Of a DNA stretch of 64,000 nucleotides, positions 31,262 to 47,364 are shown piece after piece. Origin of the DNA: Isoalcanivorax pacificus W11-5 (lineage in GTDB: Bacteria; Pseudomonadota; Gammaproteobacteria; Pseudomonadales; Alcanivoracaceae); the NCBI RefSeq assembly GCF_000299335.2, contig NZ_CP004387.1, forward strand, positions 620,001 through 684,000, written 5' to 3'. Both the position numbers and the translations under genes were made by a program. Below the pieces are notes generated by a model. It saw only the letters and a program-made list of their open reading frames with translations, was not told where the DNA came from and did not search any database. How positions within the stretch are numbered: the stretch's first letter is position 1; each line of letters starts with the position of its first letter.

Positions 31262-31485
31262 ACTGTCCTCCTGACGGATGAGCTGTTTTGCCTGACGATA
31301 CGCCAGCGGGCGGCAAACGCCACTGTCATTTTGCATCAGCGGTCGGGCGCAATGGTCAATCAGGGCGATTGTGCTGCCGGTCACAGAACGGGCCTCGGCG
31401 TTACAGCTTGTTACGCCTGCGGGGTGGTGCGGCGGCGCGGGTATTGGCACTTTGTCAGCGAGTTTTCAGCACGGGTCTTTCTGTA

Positions 31486-32613
31486 ATGAGCCGTTACCTG
31501 CGCGAGCAGTTCGAAGAAGTGGACCTGACGCCCGGCCGTGGCCGCCTCAGTGCGATGGTGTCCCTGGCGTTTGGCATGCTCGCTTTCACCGGCAGTTTCT
31601 GTTTTCTGTTTCCTGACTGGTTCACCACGCCGGAATTCCGGGCGCTGTATTCCGCCACCTGGTTGCGGGTGGCGCTGTATGCCGGCATTGCCGTGGCCTT
31701 TGTGGCCGGTTTTGTCAGTGTGTTGCGCCACGAGAACCGGCGTTACGGGCTGGTGGGCATGTTGCTGGCCTGCATGGCCGCGCTGTTCGGTTCCGGCCAG
31801 CTTGACGTGCCGCCCGTGGCCGGTCGCAGCGTGTACGCCGGGCTGGACTACTTTGTGCTGACGTTGCTGGTGCTCGGGCTGGTATTCATTCCGCTGGAGC
31901 GGGCGTTCGCCAAGGACCCGGCGCAAAAGACCCTGCGCAAGGGCTGGGTGACGGACATGAAATATTTCCTGTTCAGCCACGTCGGCCTGCAGTTGATCAG
32001 TTTCTTTACCATCATTCCGATCCAGGTGCTGCTGCACGACAAGGTGGATATCGGCTTCCAGCAGAAAATTGCCAGCCTGCCGCTGTGGGTGCAGTTCATC
32101 GGCATTCTGGTGGCGGTGGACTTCGGCACCTATTGGGCGCATCGGGCGATGCACGAAATTCCCGCCCTGTGGAAGATCCATGCGGTGCACCATTCCTCTG
32201 AGCAGATGGACTGGCTGGCGTCCTCCCGGCTGCATCTGGGCGAGATTCTGGTGAACCGTTTCCTGGGTTACCTGCCGATCTTCGTGCTCGGTTTTTCGCC
32301 TGCGGCGGTGTACGCCTATCTGGTGTTCATTTCCTTCCATGCGATCTTTATTCACGCCAATGTACGGTTCCGTTTTCCGGTGCTGCGCTGGCTGATCGCC
32401 ACACCTGAGTTCCACCACTGGCATCATTCTTCCGAAGACGAAGCGGTGGACAAGAATTACGCGGCGTTCCTGCCGGTCTATGACGTGCTGTTCGGAACGG
32501 TGTACATGCCGGACAAGCTGGCCAGCACGTACGGGACGCGCGCCAGCACGCAGGTGCCGGAGGGTGTGGTAAAACAGTTTCTGTTTCCGTTCCGGCGTAA
32601 CCGGCCAGCCTGA
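31486..32613 (+). CDS. Fatty acid hydroxylase / sterol desaturase family membrane protein
   Basis: A 375-residue polytopic protein. The three histidine clusters of the di-iron membrane hydroxylases are visible: HRAMHE, HAVHHSSE and EFHHWHHSSE. At least five hydrophobic segments are present in the N-terminal two-thirds. Such enzymes insert oxygen into, or desaturate, sterols and fatty acyl chains. It starts at the ATG at 31486, divergent from the Acr1-like gene. It ends just before the terminator in which the IS element sits. Confidence 0.88.
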   Translation: MSRYLREQFEEVDLTPGRGRLSAMVSLAFGMLAFTGSFCFLFPDWFTTPEFRALYSATWLRVALYAGIAVAFVAGFVSVLRHENRRYGLVGMLLACMAALFGSGQLDVPPVAGRSVYAGLDYFVLTLLVLGLVFIPLERAFAKDPAQKTLRKGWVTDMKYFLFSHVGLQLISFFTIIPIQVLLHDKVDIGFQQKIASLPLWVQFIGILVAVDFGTYWAHRAMHEIPALWKIHAVHHSSEQMDWLASSRLHLGEILVNRFLGYLPIFVLGFSPAAVYAYLVFISFHAIFIHANVRFRFPVLRWLIATPEFHHWHHSSEDEAVDKNYAAFLPVYDVLFGTVYMPDKLASTYGTRASTQVPEGVVKQFLFPFRRNRPA

Positions 32614-32640: not shown

Positions 32641-32661
32641 AAAGGCGCCTGTGGCGCCTTT
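32641..32661. repeat. Left copy of duplicated terminator (IS target site)
   Basis: A 21-bp palindrome with 9-bp arms AAAGGCGCC / GGCGCCTTT around a TGT loop. It is identical to 34243-34263 on the other side of the IS. The A run on its left (32634-32639) becomes a T run for minus-strand transcription, so the undisrupted site was probably a bidirectional terminator between the desaturase and acyl-CoA reductase genes. Confidence 0.85.
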
Positions 32662-32673
32662 CAGATCGCTGAC

Positions 32674-32697
32674 AAACCCCGGTTATCCGGGGTTTTT
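32674..32697 (+). terminator. Inward-facing terminator in left end of the IS
   Basis: A perfect 9-bp stem AAACCCCGG / CCGGGGTTT with a TTAT loop, followed by TT, giving a five-T run. It faces plus-strand transcription entering from the desaturase gene. It overlaps the terminal inverted repeat of the IS. Confidence 0.8.
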
Positions 32698-32843
32698 CAT
32701 TTCTGCAGTTGGGATGTGTGACGTTCGGCAGGTCATTTTCGCTGGGTGGGATAGTCGGCGACATGGCTTGATTCAGAGGGCCAAAGGGCGTTGCGGAAGC
32801 GAGGGAGGCTGGCATAGCGCCGGAGAGAGGGCCAGAGGGCTTC

Positions 32844-34187
32844 TTACCCTGCCAGCAAGGCGATTTTCTTGATGTTCTGAGCCGCCGCCGTCAGCAGACA
32901 CTGCGCCTGCACCTTGTCCCGGCCACGGTAGCGGGCATAGCGGTATTGATGCAGCTCCTTGGCGTCGGCGAAGCTGCGCTCCACCGTTTCTTTTCGGCGT
33001 TGGTAGATCGCCTTGCCCCATTCCGTCAGGCGGTGAGCATCCTGGCGTTCCCGGCTGTCTTCCCAGACATGGCGGGTGATGATCTTGATGTGTTTGGCGT
33101 GTTGGGTGCAGCGGGAGAGCAGCGGACATGCCTGGCAGATCGCCGGGTCTGACTGGTAGTGCCGGTAGCCTGTACGGCTGGTGGTTTTATAGGGCAAGTC
33201 CTGCCCTTGCGGGCACCGGTAGCTGTCGGTGTCGGGTTGGTAGTGGAATTCCCGCTTGTAGAGGTATCCCTTCCGGTGCGTGGGGCGACGGTAGCCAAAG
33301 ACGGCTTTGATCTGCTCGTCCTCCAGTCCCTTGCTGATCGCGGTGGTGTGGTAACCGGCATCCAGCCCGACATGAGTGACGTCGAACCCGAAGCGCTCTT
33401 TCTGCCGTCTCAGGCGGGCCATGTAGGGCACGGCATCGTGTACATTGCCCGCACTGACGTGCACATCGGTGATGATGTTGGCCTTGCTGTCCACAGTACG
33501 GTGATCCAGATAGAAGAACCCTTGGGGCTTGTTGTCCCGGGTCATGTAACCACTCTCAGGGTCCGTCGTGCTCTGCTTGATCTCCCGAGCCGCTGCCGGC
33601 CTGGACGCCGGCCGCAAGGGCTTTTTTCCGTGAGCTAACCGGTCCTCCTCCACTGCCCGATCCAGGTCATCCAGATACGCCTGCCGCAGGGGTTCAACCC
33701 GAGCCTTGGTCCACTTGCCCTTGTTGGCATTGGCCTTGAGGTGAGTAGAATCCGTGTACAACACCTCCCCGGACACCAGTTTGCGGCGCATCGCCTGCAA
33801 CACAATCTCGTCAAATATCTGCTGATAGATATCCGAGTCGTTGAACCGACGCCGACGGTTCTGGCTCAGGGTGCTGGCATCCGGCACCTTGTCCGTTAGC
33901 GTCAGCCCCAGAAACCACCGGTAGGCGACGTTCACCTGCACTTCCCGGATCAACTGACGTTCACTGCGAACACCGAACAGGTAACCCAGCAACAGCAGCT
34001 TGAACATCAGGGTCGGATCCAGTGCTGGCCGACCGTTGTCAGCACAGTACAACGCCTTCACCCGATCATGGATAAAGCTGAAGTCGATGTGTTTATCCAC
34101 CTTGCGAAGCAGGTGGTCCGGCGGGACAAGTTCATCAATACAGACGAACTCGAGTGTGGATTGGGTCGGAGCGCGGTCTTTTAGCAT
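32844..34187 (-). CDS. IS1182-family transposase
   Basis: A 447-residue DDE transposase. The N-terminal part (STLEFVCIDELVPPDHLLRK) and DPTLMFKLLLLGYLFGVRSE are typical of IS1182-type proteins. The catalytic acids fit LYTDSTHLKANANKGK, HVGLDAGYHTTAI and ETVERSFADAKELHQ. A cysteine-containing insert (CPQGQD...CQACPLLSRC) lies before the glutamate. The frame is intact. There is no clear Shine-Dalgarno, and TATAAT on the minus strand (34194-34199) ends 6 nt before the ATG, so the mRNA could be leaderless. Confidence 0.93.
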   Translation of the reverse strand: MLKDRAPTQSTLEFVCIDELVPPDHLLRKVDKHIDFSFIHDRVKALYCADNGRPALDPTLMFKLLLLGYLFGVRSERQLIREVQVNVAYRWFLGLTLTDKVPDASTLSQNRRRRFNDSDIYQQIFDEIVLQAMRRKLVSGEVLYTDSTHLKANANKGKWTKARVEPLRQAYLDDLDRAVEEDRLAHGKKPLRPASRPAAAREIKQSTTDPESGYMTRDNKPQGFFYLDHRTVDSKANIITDVHVSAGNVHDAVPYMARLRRQKERFGFDVTHVGLDAGYHTTAISKGLEDEQIKAVFGYRRPTHRKGYLYKREFHYQPDTDSYRCPQGQDLPYKTTSRTGYRHYQSDPAICQACPLLSRCTQHAKHIKIITRHVWEDSRERQDAHRLTEWGKAIYQRRKETVERSFADAKELHQYRYARYRGRDKVQAQCLLTAAAQNIKKIALLAG

Positions 34188-34201
34188 GCCCCGATTATAG
34201 A

Positions 34202-34230
34202 AAAGCCCTCACCACGAGGGCGAGGGCTTT
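34202..34230 (-). terminator. Inward-facing terminator in right end of the IS
   Basis: AAAGCCCTC (34202-34210) pairs with GAGGGCTTT (34222-34230), with an alternative inner pairing GCCCTC/GAGGGC around ACCAC. Read on the minus strand it ends in TTTTCT, so it can stop transcription coming from the acyl-CoA reductase gene before it reaches the transposase. Confidence 0.65.
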
Positions 34231-34242
34231 GTCAGCAGTCTG

Positions 34243-34263
34243 AAAGGCGCCTGTGGCGCCTTT
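34243..34263. repeat. Right copy of duplicated terminator (IS target site)
   Basis: Identical to 32641-32661: arms AAAGGCGCC / GGCGCCTTT with a TGT loop. It lies 20 nt past the stop of the fatty acyl-CoA reductase gene. Confidence 0.85.
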
Positions 34264-34283: not shown

Positions 34284-36299
34284 TTACCAGTGAATGCCCT
34301 TGAACAGCCGTGAAAACGCCTGCTGCTCGCGGCTGATCTTCTTCGGTGTGTTTTCCTTCTGACCCATGGCAGCGGCAGAATCGGCAAAGATCTTGTAGCC
34401 GGTGTTCATGATGGTTTCGGTGATTTTCGGCGTCAGGAAATGCATCACCGAGCCAAGAATGCCGAGGTTGGTGGCGATCCGTTTCGGCTGGCGGATGATG
34501 GCGTCGCTGATCATGTCGGCCGCCTGGCTCGGGCTGATGGTCGGTACATGATTGTAGATCTTGGTCGGCGCGATCATCGGTGTGCGCACCAGCGGCATGT
34601 TGATGGTGGTGAAGCGGATGCCCTGGTGGGCCATCTCCGAGGCGGCGCAGCGGCTGAAGGCATCCAGGGCTGCTTTCGAGGCCACATAGGCGGAGAAGCG
34701 CGGCGCATTGGTCAGCACGCCAATGGACGAAATGTTGATGATGTGACCGCCACCCTGCTCGGTCATCGACGGCAGCAGTTTCATGATCAGCCGCAGTGCA
34801 CCGAAATAGTTGAGCTGCATGGTGCGTTCGAAATCGTGGAAGCGGTCCAGCGCGTGCATTACGGAGCGGCGGATGGAGCGGCCGGCGTTGTTGACCAGAA
34901 TGTCGACACGGCCATGGTCCTTGAGCACTTCTTCCACCAGCGCATCGCAGCTGGCCAGGTCGGACACGTCGCAGCTGTAGGCCTGTGCGCGGCCACCGAT
35001 CTTGGCGATTTCTTCCAGCGTTTCGTCGAGCTTTTCCTTGGTGCGGGCGACCACCAGCACATAGGCGCCGGCCCGGGCCAGTTTCAGTGCCGTGGCCTTG
35101 CCGATGCCGGAGGTGGCGCCGGTGACCATGACCACCTTGTCGGCCACACGTTCTTCCAGTGTCGGCAGCGGTTGCAGCTCATCGGCGCGGTCGTCGCGCT
35201 CCGGGTCCAGGTGATTGGCCCAGTAGTCCCACAGCATCTGCGCATAGATTTCCAGTTCGGGCGCCTGGATGCCGCTGCCTTCCAGTGCCGCACGGGTGCG
35301 TTCGTTGGCGTAGGTCGTCGGGAAGGTCAGGAATTTCAGCGTTGCCTCGGGAATGTCGAGGCTTTCCAGCGCCTGATTAAGCAGGAACTTGCTCGGCGGC
35401 AGGCTGGCCACGCCCTTGCGCAGCATGCCGATACCCGGCAAGGCACGGAACAGGCTGTTGTCCAGGCGCACCGCCATTTTCGGGGCATCGGCCACGGCGG
35501 CGAAGATGTTCACCACCTCACCCAGGCTGTAGTGACGGTCGGCGGTGAGGTGGAAACATTCGCCATCGCCGTCGGGCTGGTGTGCCAGGTGATCAATGGC
35601 ATCGGCCACGAAATCCACCGGCACGATATTGAAGCGGCCACCCTCGACCCCGAGCAGCGGAATCCAGGGGGGCAGCAGATCGTGCAGGCGCTGGATCAGC
35701 TTGAACAGATAATAGGGGCCATCAATCTTGTCCATCTCGCCGGACTGCGAGTGGCCGACCACCATGGACGGGCGATAAATGCGCACCGGCAATTTGGCTT
35801 CCTCACGCACCAGCCGCTCGGACTCGTGCTTGGTGTAGAGGTAAGGGTCGCTGAGCGGGCCGGCTTCCTCGAACATGGTTTCGTCGAACGTGCCTTCATA
35901 CAGGCCGCCGGCGGCCACTGAGCTGACGTGGTGGAAGCATTTGGCACCCAGCTCCTCGGCCAGTTTCAGGGCCTGCCGGGTGCCTTCGATATTGGTCACC
36001 TGCTGGCTTTCGGCGTCCATGTTCAGGTCATAGATGGCAGCCAGATGCATGAACTGGTCGATTTGACCCTTGAGGTCGTCGCGCTCGCGCTTGCTCACGC
36101 CCAGCAGCTTGCGGGTCATGTCGCCCTTGATCGCCACCAGTTGCTCCGGCTCGGCTTTCAGGCGCTTGCGCAGCGCGTCGAGCTTGTACTCGGAGCCTGG
36201 GCGCACCAGCGCGAACACACGGGTGCCCGGCCGTTTGAGCAGGCGGGCAACAAGAAAACGACCGATAAAGCCGGTAGCGCCGGTGACGAAGTAATTCAT
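34284..36299 (-). CDS. Two-domain fatty acyl-CoA reductase (alcohol-forming type)
   Basis: A 671-residue fusion. Residues 1-370 form an extended-SDR/male-sterility-type reductase (MNYFVTGATGFIGRFL; active Tyr/Lys in PYLYTKHESERLV). Residues about 385-671 form a classical SDR (VVMVTGATSGIGKATALKLA; RFSAYVASKAALDAFSRCAA). This architecture and many local identities match the Marinobacter enzyme (Maqu_2507), which reduces fatty acyl-CoA to fatty alcohol for wax ester synthesis. It is divergent from a FabR-like regulator. The nearby Acr1-like SDR resembles its C-terminal half. Confidence 0.88.
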   Translation of the reverse strand: MNYFVTGATGFIGRFLVARLLKRPGTRVFALVRPGSEYKLDALRKRLKAEPEQLVAIKGDMTRKLLGVSKRERDDLKGQIDQFMHLAAIYDLNMDAESQQVTNIEGTRQALKLAEELGAKCFHHVSSVAAGGLYEGTFDETMFEEAGPLSDPYLYTKHESERLVREEAKLPVRIYRPSMVVGHSQSGEMDKIDGPYYLFKLIQRLHDLLPPWIPLLGVEGGRFNIVPVDFVADAIDHLAHQPDGDGECFHLTADRHYSLGEVVNIFAAVADAPKMAVRLDNSLFRALPGIGMLRKGVASLPPSKFLLNQALESLDIPEATLKFLTFPTTYANERTRAALEGSGIQAPELEIYAQMLWDYWANHLDPERDDRADELQPLPTLEERVADKVVMVTGATSGIGKATALKLARAGAYVLVVARTKEKLDETLEEIAKIGGRAQAYSCDVSDLASCDALVEEVLKDHGRVDILVNNAGRSIRRSVMHALDRFHDFERTMQLNYFGALRLIMKLLPSMTEQGGGHIINISSIGVLTNAPRFSAYVASKAALDAFSRCAASEMAHQGIRFTTINMPLVRTPMIAPTKIYNHVPTISPSQAADMISDAIIRQPKRIATNLGILGSVMHFLTPKITETIMNTGYKIFADSAAAMGQKENTPKKISREQQAFSRLFKGIHW

Positions 36300-44744: not shown

Positions 44745-44841
44745 TCCCTGTCCCTGAATGGCGTGATAGTAGCCGGTCCCCGGTCCCGACCCAACCGCGT
44801 ACGTCGGATGCAGTGAAACGCGCGTGGTGTTCCGCTGTTTT

Positions 44842-44864
44842 ACACTGTTTTTCGCAAACAGTGT
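44842..44864. promoter_or_regulatory. 9-bp inverted repeat upstream of the barrel gene
   Basis: ACACTGTTT at 44842-44850 and AAACAGTGT at 44856-44864 form a perfect inverted repeat with a 5-nt spacer TTCGC. It lies about 107 nt before the outer-membrane barrel gene and about 100 nt from the histidine kinase start. It could be an operator for either gene or an RNA hairpin; it has no T run in the plus direction. Confidence 0.45.
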
Positions 44865-44970
44865 TAATTCCGCGATCTGGTCACAGGGCCGTCATCTGGT
44901 CCGAAAATCACTGAACCGATGCCGTAGGATGGCTCTCGAAAGCGATGTCACTACCGAGCAGGAGGAGCAC

Positions 44971-45525
44971 ATGAAGAACGGAAATTCTGTCAAGCTTTTA
45001 CTGGCGGCCATTGCCCTGGGTAGCAGCAGCGTGGCGATGGCGGCGGGGCCATACATTGGCCTGAACTATACCCAGTTCCAGTTTGAAAGCGATGACACTG
45101 ACGAGGAGCTCAAGCCTGATGGCGTGACGCTGCGTGCCGGTATCGAGTTCAATGACTTCATCGGGCTGGAAGCCCGTGGTGCCACCGGCGTGAGCTCTGA
45201 CAAGCGCAGCACAGCGCTGGGTGACGCCGAATTCGATCTGGACCGCCTGTACGGGGGCTACGTAAAGCTCTCGGTCCCGGTGGGCGAGATGGTGCGGCCG
45301 TACATCGTGGGCGGCTACACCGAGGCCAAGGGCGAAGCGAAATTCACCACTGGGCTGGGGTCGATCGAGCGTGAGTCCGATACCGTCAATGATGAGTCCT
45401 ACGGCGCCGGTGTGGATTTCAATCTCACCGAAACATTCGGCATGAACGTGGAGTACATGCGTTATCTGGACAAGGACGACTATGAACTGAACGGCATCAG
45501 CGTGGGCTTCCGCTCCGCGTTCTGA
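44971..45525 (+). CDS. Outer-membrane beta-barrel protein
   Basis: A 184-residue protein. The signal peptide is KNGNSVKLLLAAIALGSSSV..., cleaved after AMA. The rest alternates amphipathic strands (GPYIGLNYTQFQFES, VRPYIVGGYTEAKGEAKF) and ends in a C-terminal Phe, as outer-membrane barrels do (NGISVGFRSAF). An eight-stranded OmpA-like or OmpX-like barrel is likely. GCAGGAGGAG precedes the ATG at 44971. The function is not known. Confidence 0.85.
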   Translation: MKNGNSVKLLLAAIALGSSSVAMAAGPYIGLNYTQFQFESDDTDEELKPDGVTLRAGIEFNDFIGLEARGATGVSSDKRSTALGDAEFDLDRLYGGYVKLSVPVGEMVRPYIVGGYTEAKGEAKFTTGLGSIERESDTVNDESYGAGVDFNLTETFGMNVEYMRYLDKDDYELNGISVGFRSAF

Positions 45526-45593: not shown

Positions 45594-45618
45594 AAACGGG
45601 CCGCTGTGCGGCCCGTTT
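45594..45618. repeat. Left copy of duplicated terminator (miniature element target site)
   Basis: A 25-bp palindrome with 11-bp arms AAACGGGCCGC / GCGGCCCGTTT and a TGT loop. It is identical to 45808-45832. The undisrupted site was a terminator between the barrel gene and the convergent UbiB-like kinase gene. Confidence 0.85.
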
Positions 45619-45807
45619 CAGGCTGCTGACAAACCTCGGCAGCCATTCTTCTACTAAAAAATTATCCACCCAGGGCAAAGAGTCGCTGTTTTTCTGGTGA
45701 TAGCCTCCACTTGCATAGCCATAGGGCTGCAACCTGGAATGCGACCACCCACTTTTATATCGCCTCGAAGAGGTGATTCATAAAAACAGGGGTTTGTCCT
45801 CAGTCTG
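45619..45807. mobile_element. Miniature inverted-repeat element related to the IS1182 element
   Basis: A 189-bp non-coding element. Its left end CAGGCTGCTGACAAACC and right end (read inward) CAGACTGAGGACAAACC match each other and the ends of the IS at 32662-34242 (shared core CAG..TG..GACAAA.CCC). It is flanked by a perfect 25-bp duplication of a terminator hairpin. It has no transposase gene, so it would need one supplied in trans, most simply from that IS. The interior shows no clear similarity to the IS by eye. Confidence 0.75.
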
Positions 45808-45832
45808 AAACGGGCCGCTGTGCGGCCCGTTT
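45808..45832. repeat. Right copy of duplicated terminator (miniature element target site)
   Basis: Identical to 45594-45618. It is followed by TTTATATTT-like sequence to its right, so it retains a usable T run for plus-strand termination. Confidence 0.85.
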
Positions 45833-45862: not shown

Positions 45863-47200
45863 TCAGGCATTCGCCTGGCTGGCCTCGAACAACCGCTCGA
45901 CGTTGGGCCGGAAGGCGGCCACCACGCCGAGATTCACCATGGTCCAGTAATGCCCGCCGAGCACGCGGTTGACCAGCAGTGTGCGCGCCGATGGCTGGAA
46001 GGACTCCAGGTAACGCCAGGGCGTGTCGCGGGTCTGCTTGGCCAGCCGCAAGTGCAGGCGTGAGTTGGCGAAATCGAATGGCTCCGCACCGAACGGCGGC
46101 AGCAGCAGGTCGACCCAGCGCATGTAGAACTCGCGGCTGATGGCCGGGCCCTGCGTCTTGCGAATGCCAAGCCGGTACAGGACCTGCTCCAGTTGCGGGA
46201 TATCGTCCTCGTAGGCTGCCTGGGTCAGGTCGCGGAACGCGGCGATATCTTCCTCATCCATGCGCTTGATGGCACCGAAGTCGTACATCACGATGCTGCC
46301 GTCCGGGCGGTAGGCAAAATTGCCGGGATGCGGGTCGCAGTGCACCGCACGCAACACGAACATCTGCCGGCCGATGGCATCGAAGATGCGTTCGCCGAGC
46401 AGGTTGCGCAGGGGCTGGTCGTAGGCGTCGCTGGTGCGCACCGTGTCCAGGTCATCGCCGGGCTCGAAGGTCAGCGTCAGCACCCGGTCGCTACTGTGGC
46501 TGTCGATCACATCGGGAATGACCAGCCAGGGTTCATCGGCGTGGAAGGCGCGGAATTGCCGCAGGTTGTCCGCTTCCTGGCGGTAGTCCAGTTCTTCTTC
46601 CAGTTGATCGCGAATCTCGCGAAAGATCGCGTCGAGGGTGGCCTCTTCCACTTTCAGCAGGCCACCGAGCCTGAGAATGCGGCGCAGGTGGCGCATGTCC
46701 GAATCAATCGATTCCTTGACGGCCGGATACTGGACTTTCACCACCACGTCGCGGCCATCCTGAAGGCGCGCGCGGTGCACCTGCCCGATGGAGGCGGCGG
46801 CAAACGGCTGCTCCGAGAACTCGGCAAACAGCGCTGCCGGCTCATCGCCGAGCTCGCGCTTGATCTGGCGGCGGATCACGGAGAAGGGCATCGGGGCGGA
46901 GGCTTTCTGCAGCACCGACAGGGCGTCGGCGATTTCCGGCGGCAGCAGATCCTGCATCTGTGAGGCGATCTGGCCGACCTTCATGACCGCGCCTTTCATT
47001 TCGCCCAGTGTGCTGGCCACTTCCCGGCCAATGTGACGCATCAGTTTCTCGCGGTCTTTCTGCCGGGCTTCATCGGACTGGAACAGGCTCTTTACGGAAT
47101 GGCCCGCCACCCGCGAGGCGATCGACGTGGTCATCCCGGTCAGCCGCAGCAGGCGGCCCGCCTGGGTGGTGGTGCGGAAGGAGGACTTGTCTCTGGCCAC
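45863..47200 (-). CDS. UbiB/ADCK-family atypical kinase
   Basis: A 445-residue protein from a GTG at 47200 (GGAG upstream). The family signature KxGQ is in MKVGQIASQMQDLLPPEI, with AAASIGQVHRARL and the kinase-like CDPHPGNFAYRPDGSIVMYD and FGAIKRM. UbiB-like ATPases support ubiquinone synthesis or lipid handling; this is not the ubiE-ubiJ-ubiB locus, so it is a paralogue. It ends near the miniature element and is convergent with the barrel gene. Confidence 0.88.
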   Translation of the reverse strand: MARDKSSFRTTTQAGRLLRLTGMTTSIASRVAGHSVKSLFQSDEARQKDREKLMRHIGREVASTLGEMKGAVMKVGQIASQMQDLLPPEIADALSVLQKASAPMPFSVIRRQIKRELGDEPAALFAEFSEQPFAAASIGQVHRARLQDGRDVVVKVQYPAVKESIDSDMRHLRRILRLGGLLKVEEATLDAIFREIRDQLEEELDYRQEADNLRQFRAFHADEPWLVIPDVIDSHSSDRVLTLTFEPGDDLDTVRTSDAYDQPLRNLLGERIFDAIGRQMFVLRAVHCDPHPGNFAYRPDGSIVMYDFGAIKRMDEEDIAAFRDLTQAAYEDDIPQLEQVLYRLGIRKTQGPAISREFYMRWVDLLLPPFGAEPFDFANSRLHLRLAKQTRDTPWRYLESFQPSARTLLVNRVLGGHYWTMVNLGVVAAFRPNVERLFEASQANA

Positions 47201-47364
47201 GTTCAGGCTCCGTTGTTGTTCTGCGCTGTCGTCCCTGCCGGCGCGGCAGTACAGGTAAGGCATGCGAGGTTCAATACGGCAATCTGCGACCTGCGGCGCG
47301 GGGTGTCAACGGCCTGCCGGGTCAAAAGCGCTGGCGGCAAGGCCCGCGGGGGAGGGGGAAACAG

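Follow-up and report, generated by a model that had tools for sequence, protein, structure and literature searches.

Whole-hairpin target duplication by an IS1182-family insertion sequence, its relatives and a miniature element in Isoalcanivorax pacificus

A 189-bp miniature element and an IS1182-family insertion sequence (IS) in the genome of Isoalcanivorax pacificus W11-5 are mobile and follow the same target rule. They lie at DNA hairpins of differing sequence, and the hairpin, which is single at empty sites in a sister species, stands on both sides of the inserted element. Relatives of the IS in other bacteria obey this rule as well, pointing to an enzyme that reads the shape of DNA and not its letters. 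In the reading we prefer, to which we assign a probability of roughly 0.7, the miniature element is moved in trans by the transposase of the IS, which would choose hairpin targets by shape, most likely as extruded cruciforms, and attack them at their 5′ feet.

Structure and setting of the two elements

Both elements were found in a stretch of 64,000 nucleotides (contig NZ_CP004387.1, positions 620,001 to 684,000), hereafter the window, to which coordinates refer unless stated otherwise. The miniature element occupies positions 45619–45807 (+ strand) and is enclosed by two perfect 25-bp copies of a hairpin (45594–45618 and 45808–45832), read directly from the sequence. Each copy has an 11-bp stem and a TGT loop (AAACGGGCCGC-TGT-GCGGCCCGTTT), and a first-pass annotation of the window had placed element, duplication and loop exactly. 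The element starts with CAGGCTGCTGACAAACC, its left terminal inverted repeat (45619–45635, + strand), and finishes with GGTTTGTCCTCAGTCTG. The right terminal inverted repeat (45791–45807, − strand) reads CAGACTGAGGACAAACC as the reverse complement and, compared by eye, is like the left one at 14 of 17 positions. The element is short, has terminal inverted repeats, contains no transposase gene and is present in multiple dispersed copies with target duplications, and is thus a non-autonomous miniature element (MITE). As annotated, it lies between convergent genes: an outer-membrane beta-barrel gene (44824–45525, + strand; PF13505) ends before it, and an ABC1-type atypical kinase gene (45863–47263, − strand; PF03109) ends after it.

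The IS, 1581 bp long (32662–34242, − strand), lies 11 kb from the MITE and also sits between convergent genes. A fatty-acid hydroxylase-type gene (31288–32613, + strand; PF04116; start of the open reading frame unrefined) ends before it, and a gene for a two-domain reductase (34284–36299, − strand; NAD_binding_4 plus short-chain dehydrogenase, PF07993 and PF00106) ends after it. It is flanked by identical 21-bp hairpins, AAAGGCGCC-TGT-GGCGCCTTT (32641–32661 and 34243–34263). The IS starts with CAGATCGCTGACAAACC and reads CAGACTGCTGACAAAGCC from the opposite end. These ends are of the CAG...CTG type, and the left terminal repeat of the MITE matches IS ends over 15–20 bp; the relationship between the two sets of ends had been proposed from the window alone, and the alignment holds across further copies.

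A single open reading frame between the terminal inverted repeats encodes a 447-aa DDE-type transposase (32844–34187, − strand; NF033551, PF13751, PF05598, PF01609). This is the layout of the IS1182 family, whose members measure about 1.3–2 kb, and the protein scores 489.7 bits against the family model NF033551 (transpos_IS1182; cut-off 270). The Pfam domains DDE_Tnp_1_6 and DDE_Tnp_1 identify the DDE fold. A structure model of the transposase (mean pLDDT 84.4) had Tn5, Mos1 and piggyBac transposases as its top Foldseek matches, with TM-scores below 0.4; this search adds only that the modelled protein appears to be a DDE transposase. A sequence search of solved structures gave no match at E ≤ 1.

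Further hairpins lie just inside the ends of the window IS (32676–32693 and 34203–34229). At loci L033–L112, an inner hairpin is present in 47 of 75 IS ends upstream of the transposase gene (26 with TTTT at the foot) and in 36 of 44 other IS ends, compared with 225 of 1500 random 62-mers. These inner hairpins may act as terminators that protect the transposase gene against read-through. Elsewhere in the genome, a 42-bp stretch (L014, genome positions 3773993–3774034) shows 88% identity to the IS at its left end and contains a free-standing ACAAACCCCGG...CCGGGGTTTGT hairpin; it may be a remnant of the IS or a chance likeness.

Copies in the genome and empty sites in a sister species

The genome, a single contig of 4,168,427 bases, holds eight full-length copies of the MITE at eight places. 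All are identical (189/189, 100%), and each lies at a different duplicated hairpin. Exact direct repeats flank seven of them (25, 25, 21, 18, 25, 22 and 20 bp); the eighth, L007, has a 20-bp repeat with two changes. The IS is present three times, identical over the 1570 bp compared of each copy, and every copy has an exact hairpin repeat (21, 24 and 20 bp). The genome search and flank listing that had been suggested as a check of the window sites hence found a duplicated hairpin at every copy: ten of the 11 insertions have exact repeats (18–25 bp) and one a repeat with two changes. This bears out the argument, made from two insertions, that chance is unlikely. A perfect stem of 8–11 bp ends exactly at the element in 10 of the 11, at L007 on the left side only; at L004 the perfect stem is 6 bp long and stops one base short of the element. 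The TGT loop, which the first-pass annotation had regarded as a common feature, proved to be a coincidence of the two window sites, since different loops occur in the repeats of all nine remaining insertions.

Two of these loci deserve description. At L007 (element at genome positions 345717–345905), the two changes lie in the 5′ arm of the right hairpin, AGGCGGTT for AGCGGGTT, and the elements themselves are identical in all eight copies. Arm changes are also seen at L160 and L068. The L007 changes might stem from error-prone filling of the hairpin gap. At L004 (element at genome positions 3832332–3832520), a tRNA-Arg (ccg) gene precedes a copy of the L004 hairpin that no element interrupts, and the copy with the insertion comes after a nearby repeat of the tRNA-Arg 3′ end. 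The uninterrupted copy looks like an empty site within the same genome.

Empty sites were found in the sister species Alcanivorax sp. S71-1-4 (G004). At the site orthologous to that of the window MITE, the element is absent and one hairpin, AAACGGGCCGCGATGCGGCCCGTTT, stands between otherwise similar flanks; its loop is GAT, versus TGT in the window. Flank searches inspected by eye yielded eight further empty sites (L002, L004, L005, L006, L007, L008, L012 and L013), so that a single corresponding hairpin without an element is present at 9 of 11 orthologous sites. The hairpin at the empty L007 site has a different stem sequence. The remaining two sites were uninformative, since the region differs at L003 and the intergenic region differs at the site of the window IS (L120). 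G004 also holds one 93% match to the MITE, the only one outside the MITE's own genome among 46 genomes of the family. This copy (L016) is flanked by two different hairpins.

The hairpin rule in relatives of the IS

Relatives of the IS were sought with four aligned transposases, and the best 80 of 110 loci were analysed. An IS end with at least 30 bases of flank was scored as adjoining a hairpin if a perfect stem of at least 6 bp with a loop of 3–8 ended within one base of the element. Hairpins adjoin 103 of 110 such ends of relatives, which have CAG...CTG ends and include rule-followers from both Pseudomonadota and Bacillota. The background frequency is 0.6–0.7% (470 of 63,955 positions in the window and 590 of 100,400 in the loci). 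The seven missing ends belong to L042, L068, L077, L080 (both ends) and L081 (both ends).

Both flanks were present at 32 of the relatives' loci. The hairpin is duplicated exactly at 22 and approximately at one (L058); two different hairpins occur at four (L033, L049, L070 and L074), partial or decayed repeats at another four (L042, L068, L077 and L080), and at L081 a tandem end displaces a 24-bp repeat. Matching hairpins are also carried by three pairs of contigs that break off within the IS in a draft genome of Zhongshania marina (L035/L038, L036/L040 and L037/L039).

We pooled the 11 insertions of the genome itself, the 32 of the relatives and 21 further loci into a set of 64 two-sided insertions. 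An exact hairpin duplication of 17–28 bp is present in 49 of these (10/11, 22/32 and 17/21, respectively); the 21 loci were picked for the same kind of ends, so the first two figures are the less biased. L197, L202 and L205 duplicate L166, L165 and L163 and were omitted. The 15 inexact cases comprise three approximate duplications (L007, L058 and L160), the four partial or decayed ones, six with two different hairpins (the four above, L166 and L208) and two that are ambiguous through tandem ends (L081 and L209).

Recombination between copies, or misassembly, would be expected to leave two different hairpins at one element. In G536, a genome of one contig, the two other copies fetched have ordinary duplications. 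At L042 the whole hairpin stands on the left and just its final 8 bases, TCCCGGCT, on the right; the ends may have been joined at another point, or a deletion may have followed. The element end CAGATTGCTGACA stands twice in tandem at L081, and CAGACTGTAGACAAA is found on both sides of a hairpin at L209, which looks like insertion of one element next to an older end.

The 49 exact duplications cover every length from 17 to 26 bp, plus 28 bp, of which 32 are even and 17 odd. In 37 of them, here termed closed sites, the first base pairs with the last. The stems of closed sites are 7–12 bp long (mean 8.6, sd 1.2), the loops measure 3–6, and the closing pair is A:T in 32; the palindrome extends 1–7 pairs outside the duplication in 30. 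Among the other 12 exact cases, a perfect stem of 6–10 bp fills the repeat to one base at either end in 11, and the twelfth, L207, has a mismatch below a 5-bp core. The arms vary in sequence between sites, and the target, like that of IS1272-type elements, is a hairpin regardless of sequence. The earlier proposal that the shape of the target is shared and its sequence is not, based on the two window sites, is upheld by the 11 insertions in the genome, the empty sites in the sister species and the relatives.

The hairpin is followed by TTTT or preceded by AAAA at 41 of the 49 exact sites, and intrinsic terminators carry such a run on one strand or the other. The targets had also been described as terminators, which fits most of these sites but not the window MITE site itself: it is among the eight that have no such run, and a terminator scan did not call its hairpin.

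Distribution within the IS1182 family

A survey of 398 Pseudomonadota genomes found the IS1182 model in 45 and gave 30 loci, one of which was the window's own. Six of the 29 loci examined have CAG-type ends, with exact hairpin repeats at four (L158, L161, L163 and L165), two changes at L160 and two different hairpins at L166; one locus, L178, was unreadable. At the other 22, a repeat search that included the flanks found no direct repeat of at least 11 bp that is a hairpin; many of these have GGCCCAGA- or CAGGCTGTGTG-type ends, and their true ends may be located beyond the positions assigned to them. Of nine members on plasmids, five duplicate hairpins (elements of Macrococcoides canis, Brevibacillus, Rhizobium, Vibrio penaeicida and Aminobacter) and four have no hairpin repeat (the ISEfa7 copy L188, ISCfr1 and two others). 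Three more members comprise a hairpin duplication in Staphylococcus arlettae, two different hairpins in S. simulans and the ambiguous ISEfa7 copy L209. The 22 loci and four plasmid members rule out a rule common to the whole IS1182 family, for some members of which long direct repeats are on record.

In a quick tree of 63 transposases, 29 labelled duplicators lie on one side of a single branch (SH-aLRT 99) and 14 labelled non-duplicators on the other; 20 rows are unlabelled, IS1272 is not included, and the program warns of long branches. The duplicator label of L035 rests on a contig pair. Five rows were too short and were dropped: L070, L076 (labelled duplicator), L082, L083 and L196 (labelled non-duplicator).

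Proposed mechanism of insertion

The target would be a perfect or near-perfect hairpin of any sequence, with a stem of about 7–12 bp and a loop of 3–6 nt, usually terminator-like and most likely extruded as a cruciform. Both 3′ ends of the transposon would attack the 5′ foot of the hairpin, one on each strand. Such an attack could explain the variable length of the duplication, because the two 5′-foot phosphates would meet at the four-way junction whatever the length of the arms. Each new junction would carry one single-stranded hairpin, and gap filling would copy it, so that the hairpin would end up on both sides and the duplication would follow its length, with no fixed stagger. Duplications of hairpin units that measure 17–26 and 28 bp are left unexplained by a fixed stagger on B-form DNA. 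At 30 of the 37 closed sites the palindrome continues outside the duplication, so the largest possible cruciform has its foot beyond the cut. The outer pairs mean that a stem of about 8–9 bp, not the largest palindrome, sets the cut, which would add a requirement to the model: partial extrusion, on one reading, or a preferred stem length. For the host, each convergent gene would still meet a hairpin and then its original downstream sequence, and both neighbours would keep a terminator.

We lean, with somewhat less assurance, towards extending this scheme to a clade of DDE transposases in Pseudomonadota and Bacillota. These enzymes would recognise the four-way junction of a cruciform as a Holliday-junction resolvase does, join the element ends to its two 5′ feet and leave an intact hairpin on each side, a harmless way of landing at gene ends without a target sequence code.

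A transposase dimer could instead bind the palindrome as double-stranded DNA, one arm per subunit, and cut with a long, flexible stagger without any cruciform. The little-varying stem and the prevalence of A:T closing pairs could then reflect measuring along the duplex arms. We consider this unlikely, as the variation in arm sequence leaves little for a sequence reader to read, and duplications of 17–28 bp of either parity would demand a very flexible complex. Slightly less probable again is a target in the form of a single-stranded DNA hairpin, at a replication fork or a transcription-unwound terminator, with only one strand structured when attacked. The terminator-like appearance of most sites would suit this idea, local unwinding and negative supercoiling being expected at terminators, but duplication of the whole hairpin should need 5′-foot cuts on both strands, for which a hairpin on one strand would not suffice.

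The cruciform reading further holds that the MITE depends on the transposase of the window IS. This protein has only three matches in the genome at E ≤ 0.001, namely the three identical IS copies. MITE and IS occur together in the same two of seven genomes of the genus, and neither was found in the other five; the transposase of G004 is cut by a contig end. In the family, the MITE is present in 2 of 46 genomes, again the same two, and the transposase in six, one of them a weak partial match. No further transposase was found at E ≤ 1e-100 in 369 genomes drawn from the class. On the basis of related ends, co-occurrence and a common target rule, the MITE is likely mobilised in trans by this IS1182-family transposase.

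The interior of the MITE has no match of note in the window IS or the other IS loci compared; stretches that match the IS reach only about 31 bp and lie mostly at the ends. The MITE is therefore not a simple internal deletion of the window IS, an origin that the first-pass annotation had raised and that is common for MITEs, yet not obligatory. This unrelated interior, the several positions at which MITE and IS ends differ and the 93% relative in another species would all suit a MITE that is IS-like by its ends only and is moved by another transposase, for example one since lost from the genome. We regard this as very unlikely, given that the genome holds no other match to the IS transposase at the above threshold and that the MITE obeys the hairpin rule of the IS clade. 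Finally, we can dismiss the notion that the 189-bp sequence serves at its locus as a conserved functional RNA or regulatory element, or that the hairpins belong to the element: positions 45620–45808 do fold better as RNA than shuffles (z −4.1), but the sequence occurs at eight loci with eight different hairpins, the orthologous site in Alcanivorax sp. S71-1-4 is empty with one hairpin, and none of four weak Rfam matches around the MITE reaches the gathering score of its family.

Comparison with known systems

The closest known elements are IS1272 and TnSha1, IS1182-family elements of Staphylococcus with a DDE transposase (PMC5678879, PMC4923244). The major form of IS1272 measures 1945 bp and encodes a 548-aa transposase (PMC5678879, PMC4923244). 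Like the elements described here, they target hairpins without a common sequence (PMC5678879, PMC4923244), several of which were confirmed as terminators (PMC4923244), and the target sizes of three new insertions, 22, 24 and 30 bp, are similar to ours (PMC5678879). The outcome is not the same: when IS1272 or TnSha1 inserts, the hairpin is lost wholly or in part and nothing is duplicated (PMC5678879, PMC4923244), whereas here the hairpin is present once at the empty site and twice after insertion. A geometry that would yield duplication, with attack at the 5′ feet of both cruciform arms, was put forward as a hypothetical alternative, pathway b, and the present elements fit that pathway as it is described there (PMC5678879).

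Palindrome targeting by the IS1182 family is already in print, credited to Siguier et al. in the available text of PMC5678879 and PMC4923244, as are terminator targeting with loss of the hairpin (PMC4923244) and IS1182-family MITEs (PMC11578231, PMC3852290). MITEPye1 of Paracoccus yeei resembles our MITE in being non-autonomous and intergenic and in having IS1182-family ends. It differs in its 4-bp direct repeats and in its 18-bp ends, which are like those of ISPye18, and a hairpin target is unmentioned in the available text (PMC11578231). MITEs of 160 and 169 bp in Methanosarcina acetivorans were assigned the IS1182 partner ISMac2; the table entries for them, 26/4 and 25/0, which we read as lengths of inverted and direct repeats, differ from our repeats, and the accessible portion of the paper gives no hairpin rule (PMC3852290). 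IS elements that insert into REP sequences also enter palindromic DNA, but their targets are repeated REP families, and the term 'IS1182' is absent from the text as available (PMC1525189). Among the elements we analysed, the transposase of ISEfa7, an IS1182-like element of Enterococcus faecium plasmids, groups in the quick tree with the M. canis duplicator. Its copy L209, counted as ambiguous, has CAG...CTG ends and, by eye, the same hairpin on both sides, whereas copy L188 has no flanking repeat.

No title or abstract opening retrieved from the open-licence literature reports whole-hairpin duplication by an IS, and an earlier notice of long palindromic duplications elsewhere is possible. What is new relative to that literature is a clade that duplicates whole hairpins as a rule, together with a MITE that obeys the same rule. 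With a 447-aa transposase and a 189-bp substrate, the system is a compact one for sequence-independent insertion into terminator-like hairpins. IS1272, for which structure-guided targeting by a DDE transposase had been proposed, loses the hairpin. The elements described here retain two copies of it, so that dozens of insertions reveal the target boundaries to the base, which makes the cruciform idea directly testable.
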